Assembly: GCF_002979415.1 (NCBI RefSeq)
Contig: NZ_PCOT01000003.1
Coordinates: forward strand, 62,001 to 126,000
Reading direction: 5' to 3'
DNA from: Microbacterium sp. MYb72
GTDB taxonomy: Bacteria; Actinomycetota; Actinomycetes; Actinomycetales; Microbacteriaceae
DNA length: 64,000 bases
Part shown: positions 37,462 to 43,946 of the stretch, one piece after another
Numbering within the stretch: the stretch's first letter is position 1
How the letters are laid out: every line of letters begins with the position of its first letter
Position numbers and translations under genes: made by a program
Notes under the pieces: model-generated
Told to the model about the DNA's origin: nothing
Seen by the model: only the letters and a program-made list of their open reading frames with translations
Database searches by the model: none

Positions 37462-38508
37462 ATGACAACCGAGACCCCCACTCGCGTCCTCGTCGTCGAT
37501 GACGACCCCGACGTCGCGCTGCTCGTCAAGACCGTGCTCGAACGACGAGCCGGCTGCATCGTCGACCTCGCCGCCGATGGCCGTGAGGCCGTCGAACGCG
37601 TCGCGACGATACGCCCCGACGTGGTCGTGACCGACATCGAGATGCCCGGACTCAACGGACTGGAGCTCCTCGCGGAACTGCGCCGCTCCGCTCCCGCGAT
37701 CCCCGTGCTGGTGATGACCGCGCACGTGTCCGTCGAGTACGCGGTCTCGGCGCTCCGCGCACAGGCCGACGAGTTCCTCACCAAGCCCCTCGACAACGTC
37801 CGCCTCGTCGAGTCGGTCCAGCGCCTGGCCGTCGAAGGTCGTCGCCGGCGTGAGGCCGAGCGGCGCAGGGAGGTCGTGCTCGCCGTCGGCGCGCACCCCG
37901 ACGACGTCGAGATCGGCATCGGAGGACTCCTCGCCGCGCACGCCGCGGCCGGAGACGAGATCACGATCCTCACGCTCTCGCGCGGAGCACGGGGAGGGGA
38001 TGCCGACAGCCGCCAGCGGGAGTCGCTGGCAGCCGCGGACATCCTCGGCGCCCGGCTGTTCCTGCACGACCTCGTCGACACCGAGATGTCGGGCGGAGGA
38101 TCGACGGTGCGCCTCATCGAAGAGGTGGTCCAGGAGATCCAGCCCACCATCGTGTACACCCACTCGCCGCACGATCGGCACCAGGACCACCGCGCGGTGA
38201 ACGAGGCGACTGCCGTCGCGACCCGCGCCGTGGGGACCGTCGCCTGCTACCAGAGCCCCTCATCGACGATCGACTTCCGTCCGACGCGGTTCGTCCGCAT
38301 CGACGGATACGTGGAGCAGAAGCTGCGTCTGCTGGCGTGCTTCGACTCGCAGACGGCGAACCGCGACTACCTCGCACCGGACTTCGTCCGCGCGACGGCG
38401 CGGTACTGGTCGCGGTTCGGCGGCGGACTGGCGGTCGAGCCGCTGGAGATCGTCCGGGAGACCGCGGCCTTCGTGGGCGCCCACGAATTCGTGCGACAGG
38501 AAGGCTGA
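37462..38508 (+). CDS. Response-regulator receiver fused to PIG-L (LmbE-like) deacetylase
   Basis: A 348-residue two-domain protein. Residues 8-125 are a complete receiver: acidic VVDDDPD (about 11-17), phosphoacceptor Asp58 in VVVTDIEMPGLNG, Thr in VLVMTAH and Lys108 in FLTKPLD. After a basic linker (RRRREAERRRE) comes a PIG-L domain: zinc-site AVGAHPDDVEIGIGG (HPDD at 145-148), TLSRGARGGD and HSPHDRHQDHRAV (His243). PIG-L enzymes remove N-acetyl groups from N-acetylglucosamine-like sugars. Phosphorylation of Asp58, probably by the kinase at 42174, may control the hydrolase. It is the first gene of a seven-gene operon; ATG 37462 has AAGGAGAG. Confidence 0.92.
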   Translation: MTTETPTRVLVVDDDPDVALLVKTVLERRAGCIVDLAADGREAVERVATIRPDVVVTDIEMPGLNGLELLAELRRSAPAIPVLVMTAHVSVEYAVSALRAQADEFLTKPLDNVRLVESVQRLAVEGRRRREAERRREVVLAVGAHPDDVEIGIGGLLAAHAAAGDEITILTLSRGARGGDADSRQRESLAAADILGARLFLHDLVDTEMSGGGSTVRLIEEVVQEIQPTIVYTHSPHDRHQDHRAVNEATAVATRAVGTVACYQSPSSTIDFRPTRFVRIDGYVEQKLRLLACFDSQTANRDYLAPDFVRATARYWSRFGGGLAVEPLEIVRETAAFVGAHEFVRQEG

Positions 38509-38509
38509 C

Positions 38510-39496
38510 ATGCCCCGTGTACTCGTGACGGGAGCCGGAGGGCCGGCGGGAGTGGTGGTGATCCGCTCGCTCCTGAAGCGCCCGGAGCTGACCGTCTTCG
38601 CGGCCGACATGGACGGCTGGGCCGCAGGGCTCTACCTCGTCCCCGCCGAGCAGCGGCGACTGGTGCCCCCCGGCAGGGCGGAGGAGTTCGTGCCGACCCT
38701 CGCGCGACTGGTCGAGGAGGACGCGATCGACGTGGTCGTGTCGACCGTGGACGTCGAGCTCATCGCCCTCTCCGAGCGCCGCGATGAGCTGGCCCCCGCA
38801 GTCCTGGCGGCGCCGTCCGCCGACACGCTGGACGTCTCCCTCGACAAGCTGCTGCTCGCCGAGAGATGCGCAGACACGGGGCGCGCTCCCCGGACCGTGC
38901 TCGCAGGCCCCGCGGCGCAGGCCGTTGATTGGGAGTTCCCCGTCTTCGCGAAGCCCCGCCAGGGCGCAGGCAGCCGCGGCATCCGGCTCGTCCCCGACCG
39001 GGCGGCGCTCGATGCGCTCCCCGTCGACGAGGGGCTCATCGTGCAGGACTTCCTCCCCGGGGAGGAGTACTCCGTCGACGTGATCGCGGATGCCGCGGGG
39101 CAGGTCGTGGCCGCGGTGCCGCGCACCAGGGCCCGCGTCGACTCCGGGGTCGCGATCGCCGGCCGCACGGTGCACGACCCGGAGCTGGAGGAGACCGCGT
39201 CGGCCATCGCGAAGGCGATCGGACTCGTCGGCGTCGCCAACGTGCAGCTGCGCCGAGGCCGCGACGGGCGCGCCATGCTGCTCGAGGTCAACCCGAGGTT
39301 CCCCGGAGCGCTGCCGCTGACGATCGCCGCGGGCGTCGACATCCCGTCGCTCGTCGTCGACCTGTTCCTCGGCCGCGAGCTGCCGGCGAGCGTGCCGTTC
39401 CGCGAGGTCGCGTTCGTGAGATTCCTCGAGGACATCATCGTGGAGATCGACGAGGTGCTGGTCTCCGATCACGCGGGGCACCAGGAGGAGCTGTGA
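38510..39496 (+). CDS. ATP-grasp ligase (CarB/PylC-like)
   Basis: A 328-residue enzyme. The N-terminal Rossmann-like part starts PRVLVTGAGGPAGVVVIRSL. The ATP-grasp core shows the strand FPVFAKPRQGAGSRGIRLV (Lys and Gly-rich loop), LIVQDFLPGEEYSVDVI and the Mg site AMLLEVNPRFPGALPLTIAAG (Glu and Asn). Such enzymes join a carboxylate to an amine or similar nucleophile through an acyl phosphate. A free amine on a deacetylated sugar would be a natural acceptor, but this is inference. It begins one base after the PIG-L stop with AGGAAGG as ribosome binding site, and its stop overlaps the PHP gene (GTGA). Confidence 0.85.
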   Translation: MPRVLVTGAGGPAGVVVIRSLLKRPELTVFAADMDGWAAGLYLVPAEQRRLVPPGRAEEFVPTLARLVEEDAIDVVVSTVDVELIALSERRDELAPAVLAAPSADTLDVSLDKLLLAERCADTGRAPRTVLAGPAAQAVDWEFPVFAKPRQGAGSRGIRLVPDRAALDALPVDEGLIVQDFLPGEEYSVDVIADAAGQVVAAVPRTRARVDSGVAIAGRTVHDPELEETASAIAKAIGLVGVANVQLRRGRDGRAMLLEVNPRFPGALPLTIAAGVDIPSLVVDLFLGRELPASVPFREVAFVRFLEDIIVEIDEVLVSDHAGHQEEL

Positions 39497-40206
39497 GCGA
39501 CGCCCTGCTCCGGGGGGACCATCACGTCCATTCGACGTTCTCGGATGACGCGGTCTCCACCCCGGAGGAGAACGTCGCCGCGGCCGTGTCCGCGGGGCTC
39601 ACGACCCTCCGCCTCGTCGACCACGTCCGCCGCGACACCACCTGGGTTCCCGAGTACCTCTCCGCGATCAACGCGCTCCGCGTGCCGGAGGGGCTCACCG
39701 TGCTCACCGGCGTGGAGGCGAAGGTGCTCGACGCGTCCGGGCGCCTCGACATCCCCGTTCTCCCGACCGGCGTCGACCGCATCCTCATCGCCGACCATCA
39801 GTACCCCGGCGCCGACGGACCGCTGAGCCCGAGCGAGGTGCGCGAGCGGATCTCCGGCGGATGGGCGCCCCGCGACGTGCTCGACCAGTTCACCTCGTCG
39901 TTCATCGCGGCCATGGAGAGGCACCCCGGCAACCAGCTCGCCCACTGCTTCTCCCTGCTGCCCAAGATCGACCTCTCCGAGGAGGACCTCGGCGGGGAGG
40001 CTCTCGCGGCATGGGCCGAGACCGCGGCGCGGACGGACACGCTCGTGGAGGTCAACGAGAAGTGGGGATGCCCCGAACCGCGGACACTGCGCGCCCTCCG
40101 TGCGGCGGGGGCGAGGGTCGTGGCCTCCACCGACAGCCATGAGGCGGCGACCGTCGGGCGCTACGAGCGGGTGCGTCGTCTGCTGGCAGAGGAGGCGTGG
40201 GAGTGA
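39493..40206 (+). CDS. PHP-domain metal-dependent hydrolase
   Basis: A 237-residue PHP phosphoesterase-like protein. The metal motifs are all visible: GDHHVHSTFSDDA, LRLVDHVRRD, TGVEAKVLD, RILIADHQYPGAD, QLAHCFS, LVEVNEKWG and VASTDSHEA. Members cleave phosphate esters such as histidinol phosphate, or cyclic and polymer phosphates; the substrate is not clear. It may process a phosphorylated sugar intermediate. The GTG overlaps the ATP-grasp stop, and its stop overlaps the GT2 start. Confidence 0.88.
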   Translation: MSDALLRGDHHVHSTFSDDAVSTPEENVAAAVSAGLTTLRLVDHVRRDTTWVPEYLSAINALRVPEGLTVLTGVEAKVLDASGRLDIPVLPTGVDRILIADHQYPGADGPLSPSEVRERISGGWAPRDVLDQFTSSFIAAMERHPGNQLAHCFSLLPKIDLSEEDLGGEALAAWAETAARTDTLVEVNEKWGCPEPRTLRALRAAGARVVASTDSHEAATVGRYERVRRLLAEEAWE

Positions 40207-41693
40207 CCGCCGACCTGACCTGGCTGCAGACCGCCGTCGTGATCCTGCTCCTCCTCTGCGTCCTCGTCGGCACCCTGCCCGTCATCAACACCGGACTGCA
40301 GTTCCTCTCGCTGCCTCTGCACGCGTTCAGGAACCACTACGGGAAGGCGGCGCCCTTCCACCCGAACGTGGCGGTCGTGATCCCCGCGTGGAACGAGGGC
40401 AGGGTCATCGGCCCCGCGATCGAGCGCCTGCTGCAGCTGGAGTACCCGGCCGAGCGCCTGCGCGTGTTCGTCGTCGACGACGCATCCGACGACGACACCC
40501 CGGAGGTCGTGGCCGCCACGGCCGCCGCTCACCCCGGACGCGTCGTCCATCTGCGCCGTCAGGTCGGGGGAGAGGGCAAGGCCCACACCCTGAACCACGG
40601 TCTCGACGTCGTGCTCGCCGACGAGTGGACCGAAGCGGTGCTCATCATGGACGCCGACGTGATCTTCGCGAGGGATTCGCTGCGCAAGCTCACCCGGCAC
40701 CTCGCCGACGAGAAGGTCGGCGCGGTGACCGCCTACATCGCCGAGGGCAGCCGCGACCGCAACTACCTCACGCGGTTCATCGCGGTCGAGTACATCATCG
40801 GGCAGCTCTCCGCCCGGCGGACGCAGAACGTGCTGGGCGCGATGGCCTGCCTCGCGGGCGGCGCGCAGCTGCACTCCAGGGCCAACCTCGAGGCCATCGG
40901 CGGGCGGATCCCCGCTGGCACCCTCGCCGAGGACACCATGACCACCTTCGAGGGCCAGCTCAAGGGCCGTCGTGCGGTGTTCGAGCCGCATGCTCGGGTG
41001 CTCGCCGAGGAGCCGCGCTCCATCGACGCCCTCTGGAAGCAGCGCCTGCGCTGGGCCCGCGGCAACGTGCAGCTCACGTCGATCTACCGCTCGCTGTGGT
41101 TCCGGCCGAGCAGGGAGCACGCGCTCGGCAGCTTCTCCTTCGGGCTCGCGTGGTTCACGATCCTGCTGCTCCCCGCGTTCATGCTCCTCGCGGCCGCGGC
41201 GCTCCTGGTGCTCCTGATCCTGCACAGCGACATCGCCGAGTTCGTGTTCCGCTTCATGTGGATCGCGGCGGCGTGCATCTACCTGTTCTCGATCCTCTTC
41301 TCGGTGCAGCTCGACCCGAAGACATCACGGCACGCCTGGCGGGAGGCGATCATGTTCCCGGGGCTCGGGGCGCTCCTGCTCATGCTGATCGCACTGTTCC
41401 CCTGGGCGTTCGACGCGCTGATCCGCGCGCTCGGCGGGTCTCTCACCGAGCAGACCCGCTTCGCCTGGGCGGTGGTCTTCTTCCTCTGGGGGCCGATCTC
41501 GATGCTCGGCATCTGGCTCGCCCGCGCGGTGGAGCCGCTGCCCGGCGGCCGGTTCCTCGCCGGACTGCTCGTGTACATCTGCGGGTACGGATCGCTCCTG
41601 TGCGCGGTCACCGTGGACTCCTATCTCAAGGAGTGGCGCCGGGCCGACGCCACCTGGATCAAGACCGAGAAGATCGGGCGGGTCGACTCATGA
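40203..41693 (+). CDS. Processive GT2 membrane glycosyltransferase
   Basis: A 496-residue enzyme resembling hyaluronan synthase, PgaC and cellulose-synthase-like proteins. After one N-terminal helix the catalytic domain has NVAVVIPAWNEGRVIG, VVDDASDDD at about 90-98, MDADV at about 148, TLAEDTMTT at about 240 and QRLRWARGN at about 280, the D, DxD, TED and Q/RxxRW motifs. About five to six helices follow, forming a likely export channel. It probably builds a beta-linked glycan at the membrane from a UDP-sugar. With the PIG-L gene in the same operon, an N-acetylhexosamine polymer is a reasonable guess. GTG 40203 is chosen for the GTGA overlap; GTG 40197 is an alternative. Confidence 0.88.
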   Translation: MTADLTWLQTAVVILLLLCVLVGTLPVINTGLQFLSLPLHAFRNHYGKAAPFHPNVAVVIPAWNEGRVIGPAIERLLQLEYPAERLRVFVVDDASDDDTPEVVAATAAAHPGRVVHLRRQVGGEGKAHTLNHGLDVVLADEWTEAVLIMDADVIFARDSLRKLTRHLADEKVGAVTAYIAEGSRDRNYLTRFIAVEYIIGQLSARRTQNVLGAMACLAGGAQLHSRANLEAIGGRIPAGTLAEDTMTTFEGQLKGRRAVFEPHARVLAEEPRSIDALWKQRLRWARGNVQLTSIYRSLWFRPSREHALGSFSFGLAWFTILLLPAFMLLAAAALLVLLILHSDIAEFVFRFMWIAAACIYLFSILFSVQLDPKTSRHAWREAIMFPGLGALLLMLIALFPWAFDALIRALGGSLTEQTRFAWAVVFFLWGPISMLGIWLARAVEPLPGGRFLAGLLVYICGYGSLLCAVTVDSYLKEWRRADATWIKTEKIGRVDS

Positions 41694-41833
41694 CCGGGAT
41701 GCCGAACGAGCACGACGAGCGCGAGGAGATCGCGCGCGACGCCGAGAAGGAGCGGATGCTGGTGCCGCAGGCGCTGATCGCAATGGGCATCGTCGTCGTC
41801 ATCGTGATCGTCAGAGAGCTGTTCCTCCGATGA
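41690..41833 (+). CDS. 47-residue single-helix membrane protein
   Basis: A very small gene joined to both neighbours by four-base ATGA overlaps (41690-41693 and 41830-41833). The N-terminal half is charged (NEHDEREEIARDAEKER); the C-terminal half is one helix, ALIAMGIVVVIVIVRELFL. The double overlap and the clear amphipathic-then-membrane design support a real gene. It may assist the GT2 synthase or the sensor kinase. No family is recognised. Confidence 0.75.
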   Translation: MTGMPNEHDEREEIARDAEKERMLVPQALIAMGIVVVIVIVRELFLR

Positions 41834-42177
41834 GCGCGCGACGTCTGGCGCTCGTCGTGGAGGACAGCGAGGATCAGGCGGCACTGCTGCGCCGGCACCT
41901 GGAGCGCGAGGGGTTCGAGGTCTTCGTGGCGAAGGACGCCGAGACCGCCATCGCCGCGTTCGACGAGATCGAGCCCGTCATCGCCGTCCTCGACCTGCTT
42001 CTCCCCGGCATCTCCGGTCAGGAGTGCGCGCGTCAAGTGCAGCGGCGCTTCCCCGAGTGCTTCCTCGTGATCAGCTCGGTCCTCGACGCGGCGGACTACC
42101 CGCCGGCGGACGCCGCGCTCCCGAAGCCGATCATCGGCGCCGATCTCCGCGAGCTCGTCGGGAGGATCGGACGGTGA
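41830..42177 (+). CDS. Stand-alone response-regulator receiver protein
   Basis: A 115-residue single receiver domain. It has VVEDSED near the start, phosphoacceptor Asp in IAVLDLLLPGISG, Ser in LVISSVLDAAD and Lys in ALPKPIIGADL. There is no output domain. It could carry phosphate between the kinase downstream and the receiver-PIG-L protein, or act as a phosphate sink. Overlaps of four bases join it to the small membrane gene and to the kinase gene. Confidence 0.9.
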   Translation: MSARRLALVVEDSEDQAALLRRHLEREGFEVFVAKDAETAIAAFDEIEPVIAVLDLLLPGISGQECARQVQRRFPECFLVISSVLDAADYPPADAALPKPIIGADLRELVGRIGR

Positions 42178-43946
42178 GCGAGCTGACGACGACGGAGAAG
42201 GGGTGGCGCCGGTTCTTCGACGACCCCTCGCCGCTCGTCAAGCAGGCGCCGACGACCATCGCGGTCCTCGTTGCGGCCGTGCTCATGGTCACGATCCCGA
42301 GCTTCCCCATCACCAGCGCCGCCGCCGCAGTCGCGGGCGTCGCGGTCGTGATGGCAACGACCGCTCTCGCCGTCGTCCTCAGCATCCGGCATGTGCACGA
42401 GGGCTGGGTCGTGCTTCTCATCCCGATCGTCGACATCCTCGGGATCGGCCTGCTGAGAACGGGCACGGGCGGGTCGGGCTCCCTGTTCTCGTCGTTCGTG
42501 CTCCTGCCGGTCGTCTGGATCGCGGCGGCCCCCGGCATCCGCCACGTGTTCATCGTGGCGATCTTCACCTCGATCGCCCTGCTCATGCCGTACCTGACCT
42601 CGCCGCCGCCCGACACGGTGTCGTGGCTGCGCGGCGTGATCGGGCCCCTCGTCTTCGCGGCGGTCGGCGCCCTCGTCAACGAGCTGTCGCGGCAGCAGCG
42701 GCTGCGCATCGCGCAGGCCGAGCGTCTGGTGGCCGAGCGCACCGAAGCCCTCGCCGAGAACCTCGCCATGGTCGAGCAGCTCCGTGCGAGCGAGGCCCAG
42801 TACCGCACGCTTCTCGACTCCTTTCAGAGCCTGTGGCAGTCGATCACCGCCCAGGCCGTCATCGCGACAGACCTCGACGGGAAGATCGTCGAATGGAACC
42901 CCGGCGCGGTGCGCCTGCTCGGGTTGACCCCCGCGGAGGAGCTGGCCGACGTCCGGGTCGATCGCTTCTTCCCCGCCTCCGCGCTCTCGACGTTCGAGGA
43001 CTGTCCGGCCACGGCTCCGGCAGATCACGCCCCCGAGCTCCCCGAGGGGCTGCGGCGCCTCTTCGCAGCGGCCGACACCGACCAGTTCGTCGAGGCCGAC
43101 CTCGATGTCAGGACAGCCGGAGGTTCGTCGGTCCCCGCCCGCCTGACGGTCACGGCGCACCGCGACGGCTCCGGCGTGCGACGAGGGTATCTGCTCGTCA
43201 TCACCGACGAGACGAAGGCCGTCGAGGTCGCCCGCATGAAGGACGAGTTCGTGGGGATGATCTCGCACGAGCTGCGCACCCCTCTCAGCGCGATCATCGG
43301 ATTCCTCGATCTGCTGCAGAACGACCCGGGGCAGCCGCTGACCGCCGACCAGACCGAGTTCGTCGCGGTGATCGAGCGCAATGCGAAACGGCTGCTGAAC
43401 CTCGTCGGAGACCTCCTCTTCACCGCGCAGGTGGAGTCGGGCCGGTTCCCTCTGGAGAAGGCGGATGCCGACATCGGCGCCCTCGTCGTCTCCGCCGTGG
43501 CCTCGGCGCGGCCGCACGCGCAGCGCGAGGGCATCGAGCTCGCCGCGGAGATCCCCGTGGACTCCTCCTTCCGGCTCGACGCCGACGCCGGCCGCATCGG
43601 GCAGGCGCTCGACAACCTGCTCTCCAACGCGATCAAGTTCACCCCGCGCGGCGGCAGGGTGACGGCGCGGGTCGAGCGAGGGGACGGCGTGATCCGGCTC
43701 TCGGTCGCCGACACCGGCATCGGCATCCCCGAGGACGAGCAGGGCATGCTCTTCACCCGCTTCTTCCGCGCGTCCAGCGCGACGAGGAACGCGGTGCCGG
43801 GCGTCGGGCTCGGGCTCACGATCACGCGTGCCATCGTGCTCGCGCACGGCGGATCGATGGACGTCAGCAGCCAGGAGGGGGTCGGCACGGAGTTCCGCAT
43901 CACCCTGCCGCTCGCGCCCCGGACCGAGGCGCTGCGCCTGGGCTGA
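42174..43946 (+). CDS. Membrane sensor histidine kinase with PAS domain
   Basis: A 590-residue kinase. Residues 25-170 hold about six helices with little extracellular sequence. A coiled segment (AERLVAERTEALAENLAMVEQL, in part ERLVAERTEALAENLAM) leads to a PAS domain (QAVIATDLDGKIVEWNPGAVRLLG). HisKA has His at about 364 in MISHELRTPLSAIIGF; HATPase shows QALDNLLSNAIKFT, VADTGIGIPEDEQ and GVGLGLTITRAIV. It ends the operon. With two receivers and no DNA-binding regulator in the operon, it probably controls enzyme activity rather than transcription. Confidence 0.93.
   Translation: MSELTTTEKGWRRFFDDPSPLVKQAPTTIAVLVAAVLMVTIPSFPITSAAAAVAGVAVVMATTALAVVLSIRHVHEGWVVLLIPIVDILGIGLLRTGTGGSGSLFSSFVLLPVVWIAAAPGIRHVFIVAIFTSIALLMPYLTSPPPDTVSWLRGVIGPLVFAAVGALVNELSRQQRLRIAQAERLVAERTEALAENLAMVEQLRASEAQYRTLLDSFQSLWQSITAQAVIATDLDGKIVEWNPGAVRLLGLTPAEELADVRVDRFFPASALSTFEDCPATAPADHAPELPEGLRRLFAAADTDQFVEADLDVRTAGGSSVPARLTVTAHRDGSGVRRGYLLVITDETKAVEVARMKDEFVGMISHELRTPLSAIIGFLDLLQNDPGQPLTADQTEFVAVIERNAKRLLNLVGDLLFTAQVESGRFPLEKADADIGALVVSAVASARPHAQREGIELAAEIPVDSSFRLDADAGRIGQALDNLLSNAIKFTPRGGRVTARVERGDGVIRLSVADTGIGIPEDEQGMLFTRFFRASSATRNAVPGVGLGLTITRAIVLAHGGSMDVSSQEGVGTEFRITLPLAPRTEALRLG

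Follow-up and report, generated by a model that had tools for sequence, protein, structure and literature searches.

A receiver-PIG-L deacetylase fusion heads a putative amino-sugar glycan operon in Microbacterium sp. MYb72 and its relatives

What does a two-component system govern when its genes are packed among those of glycan enzymes? The question is raised by seven tightly packed genes at 37462-43946, all on the plus strand, in a 64,000-nucleotide stretch of Microbacterium sp. MYb72 (contig NZ_PCOT01000003.1, positions 62,001 to 126,000; the whole stretch is called the window here). They encode a receiver fused to a PIG-L deacetylase domain, an ATP-grasp ligase, a PHP-family hydrolase, a family 2 glycosyltransferase (GT2), a 47-residue membrane protein, a stand-alone receiver and a membrane histidine kinase (Table 1). 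Comparison of sequences leads us to give about an even chance to the proposal that this is a two-component system whose output is a cytoplasmic PIG-L deacetylase, in an operon making an N-modified amino-sugar polymer. We regard the operon as more than a chance arrangement because the set recurs in other genomes and the motif residues of its enzymes are kept.

A first-pass annotation, made from the letters of the window, had named these seven families at the same coordinates, and reading frames, Pfam and NCBIfam confirmed both. It had also stated that a DNA-binding output is missing, and indeed Pfam (E<=0.01) matched none of the seven proteins to a DNA-binding family. Its remark that most junctions are four-base overlaps is true of four, possibly five, of the six: GTGA at 39493-39496 between the ATP-grasp and PHP genes, ATGA at 41690-41693 between GT2 and the 47-residue gene, ATGA at 41830-41833 between the latter and the lone receiver, and GTGA at 42174-42177 between lone receiver and kinase. 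The PHP and GT2 genes overlap by 10 bases if GT2 starts at GTG 40197 and by 4 bases if it starts at GTG 40203, and a single spacer base separates the fusion from the ligase gene (stop ending at 38508, ATG at 38510).

Judged by its intact receiver and catalytic residues, the fusion has the make-up of a response regulator with an enzymatic output. Pfam recognised Response_reg over residues 9-119 (111 bits) and PIG-L over residues 140-253 (90 bits). The receiver has the acidic pair D14 D15, the phosphoacceptor D58, T86 and K108, and the PIG-L active site is complete (H145-P-D147-D148, E150, H240-Q-D242-H243); by analogy with MshB-type enzymes, H145, D147, D148, H240, D242 and H243 are presumably metal ligands or catalytic residues. 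The AlphaFold model was confident (mean pLDDT 90.5, pTM 0.77), and with it Foldseek placed BC1534, TT1542, BshB and archaeal diacetylchitobiose deacetylases at the top of the matches of the PIG-L half, Spo0F being the first receiver-only chain matched. No membrane helix is predicted in the fusion and no signal peptide is evident; it misses the cut-off of the BshB1 equivalog (87.8 vs 182.5 bits) and is the only PIG-L match in the whole source genome.

Gene order in relatives was compared over 112 gathered loci, which became 106 distinct ones once six duplicates were dropped. The first-pass annotation had said beforehand that its proposal should fall if the neighbourhood was not conserved in related genera; the neighbourhood did prove conserved, with the fusion, ATP-grasp, PHP and GT2 genes in the same order and on the same strand in 59 of the 106 loci, from several Actinomycetota lineages. 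Its expectation of all seven families in the window's order held exactly in 17/106, and among the others are loci without the lone receiver, with two of them or without a local GT2: 15/106 have the window order with two stand-alone receivers, 10/106 have every gene except GT2, and 20/106 have the kinase downstream with no stand-alone receiver found between, so that in these 20 the fusion is the receiver at hand. For nine of the ten loci lacking GT2, the nine being of one genus, the genome was searched; a GT2 ortholog lay elsewhere in 9/9 (55-59% identity). Neighbourhoods of the relocated gene were fetched for eight of the nine genomes, and those looked at as a functional clue were uninformative (a luciferase-like monooxygenase, an FMN reductase and an EamA transporter at L173, a short-chain dehydrogenase at L174).

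The enzymes also travel together across genomes. Among 150 genomes of the family the fusion was found in 25, and the 14 genomes with an ATP-grasp ortholog are the same 14 that have the GT2 ortholog and all lie within those 25; two extra weak ATP-grasp matches (81-83 bits) were in genomes without the fusion. A PHP relative (E<=1e-12) was found in 10/203 genomes of the order, every time at the locus of the four-gene set. At L198, a PIG-L protein with no receiver is followed by ATP-grasp, PHP and GT2 genes and then by a 44-residue gene. A 26th fusion match, in genome G122, was not counted, because its receiver is joined to a SpoIIE phosphatase instead (L052:6971-8080); this receiver is 57% identical to that of the window over residues 3-136, and the gene is followed by one for an OpgC-type protein, so that here the output is swapped on a similar receiver.

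The two halves of the fusion appear, from residue conservation, to be under separate constraints: PIG-L seems functionally coupled with the ligase set, the receiver with the kinase, and the fusion joins both. We scored the six PIG-L residues named above and took an ATP-grasp match of at least 140 bits as presence of the ligase. All six residues were intact in 77/77 loci with the ATP-grasp gene and in 15/28 without it (13 changed, as at L046 and L050; Fisher's test 3e-9, which ignores kinship). An ATP-grasp homolog (E<=1e-10) was found in 0/22 family genomes that have the fusion but lack the ligase set, four of these assemblies being 81-89% complete, and the controls were positive in 5/5; therefore the absence of the ligase is not a mere relocation. 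Ligase-less loci keep their receiver residues, with the exceptions of L051 and L194. Receiver residues, in turn, were intact in 86/86 loci with a kinase of the window's family nearby and in 9/19 without one, nearby meaning within about 4 kb on the upstream side and 9 kb on the downstream side, or within the fetched stretch; the Blastococcus loci L060 and L061 have a kinase and a receiver 3-6 kb upstream, beyond this limit. Five of the ten changed receivers lack D58 (L077, L078, L195, L197 and L198, the last having no receiver). From the named scan (at least 80 loci), 27 were counted (L053-L078 and L085), with L079-L084, L086 and L090 as comparison loci. The receiver-SpoIIE locus was kept out of the counts, and L191, a second and diverged PIG-L protein in G454, was excluded from the tree and from the 105-row counts. 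L193 was recoded as ligase-less, its ATP-grasp and GT2 matches being weak (89 and 134 bits) and in another gene group; counts follow the recoding, and the tree with its independent pairs and plain parsimony follows the earlier coding.

The tree was built with the scored columns left out (a quick search, with many open forks); on it, losses of PIG-L residues fell on ligase-less branches, 8 vs 0 under an irreversible model (p 2e-6) and 3 vs 0 under plain parsimony (p 0.0013). Receiver losses fell on kinase-less branches, 5 vs 0 (irreversible, p 0.0014) or 4 vs 0 (plain parsimony, p 0.005). With branch lengths fitted for each half over 85 rows, 25 of them ligase-less, the ratio of PIG-L to receiver rate was 1.12 on ligase-less and 0.51 on other branches (permutation over branches p 4e-4, kinship not kept); it was 0.84 on ligase-less branches with all residues intact, and before the recoding of L193 the ratios were 1.33 vs 0.49. 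Three ligase-less relatives, G243, G367 and G276 (L167, L170 and L172), have an in-frame stop inside the fusion match, possibly through decay, a match overrunning the gene or a sequencing error; we gave these stops no weight because similar flags occur in ligase-bearing genomes, as in the ATP-grasp match of G102.

As for the enzymes themselves, the GT2 was proposed by the first-pass annotation to build a glycan, and its sequence agrees with this: it carries the motifs and helices of a processive polysaccharide synthase, as read from its sequence. It matches Glyco_tranf_2_3 at 117.6 bits and has six predicted helices by simple hydropathy, and D94 D95, D152-A-D154, E245-D246 and Q282-R-x-R-W286 are at least 99% conserved in 63 homologs. 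In the ATP-grasp protein (ATPgrasp_Ter 110 bits; PRK12767-type 154 bits, under that model's cut-off of 390; nearest solved chains 2pn1 and PylC 4ffl), K148, E186, E259 and R263 are conserved to at least 99% over 78 homologs. The same level holds over 72 homologs for H11, H13, H44, E75, H102, H151, D214 and H216 of the PHP protein, which matches Pfam PHP at 39.6 bits and, among solved chains, E. coli YcdX alone. Among the conserved residues of these three enzymes and of the kinase are metal ligands, such as those of the PHP protein, and ATP-binding residues. At L075 the PHP slot is occupied by a His_Phos_1 phosphatase, and a HAD phosphatase accompanies the related Geodermatophilus cluster L081 of receiver-less PIG-L, ATP-grasp, GT2 and UDP-GlcNAc 2-epimerase; both cases suggest that PHP acts here as a phosphatase.

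Stand-alone receivers downstream of the fusion retain the acidic pair, D55 and K99 in 88/88 cases, that of the window matching Response_reg at 46.9 bits, and H365 and the N and G boxes (N481, D513, G515 and G517) of the kinase, which has six predicted helices by simple hydropathy, are at least 99% conserved in 86 homologs. In the 47-residue protein E21 is present in 59/59 homologs and E13 and R42 in 57/59, and the protein is retained in the 10 loci without GT2. At the ligase-less L047 (= L067) four histidine kinases and three stand-alone receivers are strung together with the fusion, as if the signalling part had been amplified.

Several observations weigh against the proposed reading. The best curated match of the GT2 is the PgaC/IcaA equivalog at 117.3 bits, far under its cut-off of 422.3, and therefore the polymer cannot be named; the cut-off of NodC was also missed (73.9 vs 550 bits), and the GT2s of Legionella rowbothamii, a Rhodospirillales bacterium and a Solirubrobacterales metagenome-assembled genome (MAG) reached 107-131 bits with PgaC/IcaA, sub-threshold as well. 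In five of the ten changed receivers (L051, L070, L075, L085 and L194) D58 is present, and the deviation lies in the acidic pair or the lysine. Plain parsimony also needs four regains of catalytic residues, which is unlikely, so that neither loss count is exact. The cassette changed independently 5-6 times, too seldom for a formal test of correlated evolution, and phylogenetically independent pairs were too few for significance: for the ligase cassette and PIG-L, 2-3 agree, 0 disagree and 2-3 are uninformative, and for kinase and receiver, 1-3 agree, 0 disagree and 3-5 are uninformative. Partial distance correlation gave no kinase-receiver signal beyond that of the whole operon (receiver with the DHp domain 0.13, PIG-L with DHp 0.31). 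An outer-membrane pore in Proteobacteria was not borne out either: L070, L075 and L085 have, close to the set, TPR proteins whose starts resemble signal peptides by eye, which fits an exported product, and the TPR half of such a protein folds fairly well, but its C-terminal half has a pLDDT of about 22-38 and the PgaA/BcsC model matches are limited to the repeats. Finally, the kinase/receiver module is often retained where the ligase set is missing, and PIG-L there is often altered.

This last point bears on the central claim of the first-pass annotation, that the kinase governs glycan modification by acting on the deacetylase. The claim is favoured in that ATP-grasp, PHP and GT2 track the PIG-L half and in that, at 20 of the 106 loci, no stand-alone receiver was found downstream although the kinase is there. 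It has to be narrowed on two sides. As the module persists without the ligase set, control of the deacetylase is not its sole job, and as the enzymes are retained at some loci whose receiver is degenerate or missing and which have no such kinase nearby, control by phosphorylation is not required for the pathway.

Within these bounds the following mechanism may be proposed. The membrane and PAS input of the kinase would sense some signal, and the kinase would phosphorylate D58 of the fusion and perhaps also the lone receiver, which could serve as a phosphate sink or as a second output of the same kinase. Phosphorylation of D58 would switch the deacetylase on or off, and the deacetylase would free the amine of an N-acetylhexosamine. 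Candidate substrates are a nucleotide sugar, a lipid-linked sugar or a growing chain end on the cytoplasmic side, because the fusion is predicted to have no membrane helix and shows no evident signal peptide. The PHP enzyme would remove a phosphate, the ATP-grasp enzyme would re-cap the amine with an acyl, aminoacyl or carbamoyl group, and GT2 would polymerise the chain and extrude it, with the 47-residue protein anchoring or aiding the complex. Phosphorylation, its direction, the substrate, the product and a surface location of the glycan are the parts that we infer.

Two-component outputs are mostly transcription or second-messenger enzymes. It is possible, though somewhat short of probable, that the locus stands for a kind of glycan operon that is both widespread and undescribed: a membrane kinase would set polymer chemistry fast by phosphorylating the cytoplasmic deacetylase itself, the output being the choice between acetyl and ligase-added group and not gene expression, and a fusion left without the biosynthetic genes would drift to a catalytically dead regulator still serving its kinase. 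Across several lineages of Actinomycetota, and in some Pseudomonadota, the comparative evidence ties the kinase to an amino-sugar-modifying enzyme within its own pathway. If this is true, a cell polymer would be controlled directly at the level of the enzyme, and the PHP/ATP-grasp/PIG-L/GT2 set, whose product is undescribed in the literature searched, would gain a function; receiver-less, kinase-less and ligase-less relatives offer natural controls for its study.

The same genes may be read in other ways. Mycothiol synthesis proceeds through MshA, a phosphatase, MshB and MshC, and a glycosyltransferase, a phosphatase, a PIG-L deacetylase and an ATP-dependent ligase follow a parallel logic; the product might thus be a soluble pseudodisaccharide cofactor, tuned by the kinase, instead of a polymer. 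No MshC over the cut-off was found in the source genome (best 279 bits, cut-off 485) and its sole PIG-L is the fusion, so the source genome probably makes no mycothiol; both findings speak for such a cofactor. A role in mycothiol synthesis itself was rejected there for want of MshC. MshC is also somewhat rarer where the ligase set is present (5/14 genomes vs 82/136 others). However, MshC and the set coexist in those 5/14, so that the set as a simple family-wide substitute for mycothiol is unsupported, and the window GT2 is a multi-helix protein with the Q-R-x-R-W motif and not a soluble GT4. We therefore consider the cofactor pathway unlikely.

The two remaining alternatives concern the roles of the two halves of the fusion. 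PIG-L could be mainly a signalling or sugar-binding part of the regulator, the adjacent enzymes forming a separate, co-transcribed pathway, as the ligase-less loci might suggest, where the fusion is kept, mostly with kinase and receivers, and catalytic residues are changed in 13/28. But where the ligase is present the residues are intact throughout and PIG-L is the slower-evolving half, and the receiver-less operon of L198 ties the enzyme to the pathway, and we hold a mainly signalling or sugar-binding PIG-L to be distinctly improbable. Conversely, the receiver might merely dimerise or position the enzyme, for example at the membrane close to the kinase, with phosphorylation having no strong effect on activity. 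Receivers without D58 are in fact kept in L077, L078, L195 and L197, where the PIG-L residues are intact and no kinase of the window's family is nearby, yet the phosphorylation residues are intact in every locus with such a kinase, and we find this option quite unlikely. Phospho-control of a deacetylase within a polymer pathway remains the reading that we prefer.

How does such a system compare with those described? Receivers fused to BcsA-like GT2 enzymes occur in Methanobacteriaceae and are described as narrowly distributed, as far as the accessible part of that source goes (PMC5847659). The enzymatic-output regulators treated in the same part likewise lack a DNA-binding domain and carry a metabolic or glycan enzyme on the receiver; compared with the archaeal receiver-GT2 fusions, the output here is PIG-L, in a conserved operon with likely pathway partners, often with a kinase, and in two phyla. 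Thus receiver-enzyme fusions are already known, and the results suggest that a receiver-PIG-L fusion in such an operon is an apparently undescribed variant. No description of a receiver-PIG-L fusion or of the PIG-L/ATP-grasp set was found in the full texts searched, which left most subscription papers and two older output-domain surveys outside, where a mention is possible.

Systems for poly-N-acetylglucosamine (PNAG) use the small membrane accessory proteins PgaD and IcaD, with which the 47-residue protein may be compared, and to our knowledge they have no ATP-grasp ligase or phosphatase-like enzyme, both of which the window operon adds. Nod factor synthesis has at its core NodC, NodB and NodA, that is a GT2, a deacetylase of the CE4 family and an acyltransferase for N-acylation of the freed amine; the chemical order is the same in outline, whereas the window operon would fill the last two roles with PIG-L and ATP-grasp enzymes and adds kinase and receiver control. 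In mycothiol and bacillithiol synthesis PIG-L deacetylates an N-acetylglucosamine conjugate in a short pathway with amide or thiol attachment at the end, and MshA and BshA are soluble GT4 enzymes; in the window the GT2 is membrane-bound, and neither BshB1 nor MshC is reached at its cut-off. In Streptomyces, MatAB makes PNAG with a GT2 and the extracellular CE4 deacetylase domain of MatB, according to the accessible part of PMC5972031. As far as that part goes, pga/ica and MatAB share with the window operon a PgaC-type membrane GT2 and an amino-sugar deacetylase; the window operon, in contrast, has no extracellular or periplasmic CE4 deacetylase, and its PIG-L, with no predicted helix, stands under a receiver.

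The fusion matched in 65/398 genomes and 23/85 genera of the family (E<=1e-50), in 22/347 genomes of the order (E<=1e-45; three of these matches cover the PIG-L part alone or miss the first 66 residues) and in 3/396 genomes drawn across the phylum, each count including the source genome; it is present in 3/16 sampled genomes of the source genus. Among the matches listed, the nearest named relatives are Microbacterium strains SA39, A20 and H83, and the fusion occurs in Microbacterium, Leucobacter komagatae, Leifsonia, Glaciihabitans, Blastococcus and Cellulomonas and, elsewhere in Actinomycetota, in Solirubrobacterales, Thermoleophilia, Miltoncostaea, Frankiaceae, Occultella and Serinicoccus, the receiver being degenerate in the last two. 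Proteobacterial fusions among the same matches are those of Legionella rowbothamii, a Rhodospirillales bacterium and two proteobacterial MAGs; looser versions of the gene set occur in Pseudomonadota, some of these proteobacterial cases being MAGs. No match was found in a plasmid collection at E<=1e-30. A part in anti-phage defence was considered and rejected, as PADLOC models gave only weak matches over the receivers and the ATPase domain of the kinase, and the ATP-grasp, PHP, GT2 and 47-residue proteins had no match (E<=0.001).

Table 1. Genes of the operon and its neighbours, with positions in the window
Feature	Coordinates	Strand	Family match or remark
Receiver-PIG-L fusion, 348 aa	37462..38508	+	Pfam Response_reg and PIG-L
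ATP-grasp ligase, 328 aa	38510..39496	+	Pfam ATPgrasp_Ter
PHP-family metal hydrolase, 237 aa, likely phosphatase	39493..40206	+	Pfam PHP
Processive-type GT2 glycosyltransferase	40197..41693	+	Pfam Glyco_tranf_2_3; alternative start 40203
47-residue protein, one predicted membrane helix (23-41)	41690..41833	+	no Pfam or NCBIfam family
Stand-alone receiver, 115 aa	41830..42177	+	Pfam Response_reg
Membrane histidine kinase, 590 aa	42174..43946	+	Pfam PAS, HisKA, HATPase_c
MFS transporter	34530		flanks operon
TetR regulator	36062		flanks operon
Protein with sub-threshold DUF4190 match	36770	opposite	flanks operon
OsmC protein	43997		flanks operon

Other neighbours recur in the family. A carbon-nitrogen hydrolase (a cluster of 11) flanks many of 25 family loci, for example L030, L035, L037, L041 and L042, and many of the same 25 also have beside them, on the other strand, a class I aminotransferase (a cluster of 13); both families were typed on L035 only, and both are missing beside the window operon. 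At L078:13397-15957 and L077:13244-15492, two loci with degenerate receivers, two adjoining genes follow the four-gene set; the larger (500 and 606 aa) lacks a Pfam match at both loci and the smaller at L077. L081, L083 and L084 hold a receiver-less PIG-L, a GT2, a weak exosortase match, an ATP-grasp protein, a UDP-GlcNAc 2-epimerase and a HAD phosphatase; the Geodermatophilus clusters were typed on L081, and the Actinoplanes locus L084 is similar by clustering. These clusters are a related but distinct glycan pathway. Possible duplications were also seen, with a second receiver-PIG-L match downstream of the operon at L157 and two consecutive GT2 matches at L066 and likewise at L146, the latter perhaps a split frame.

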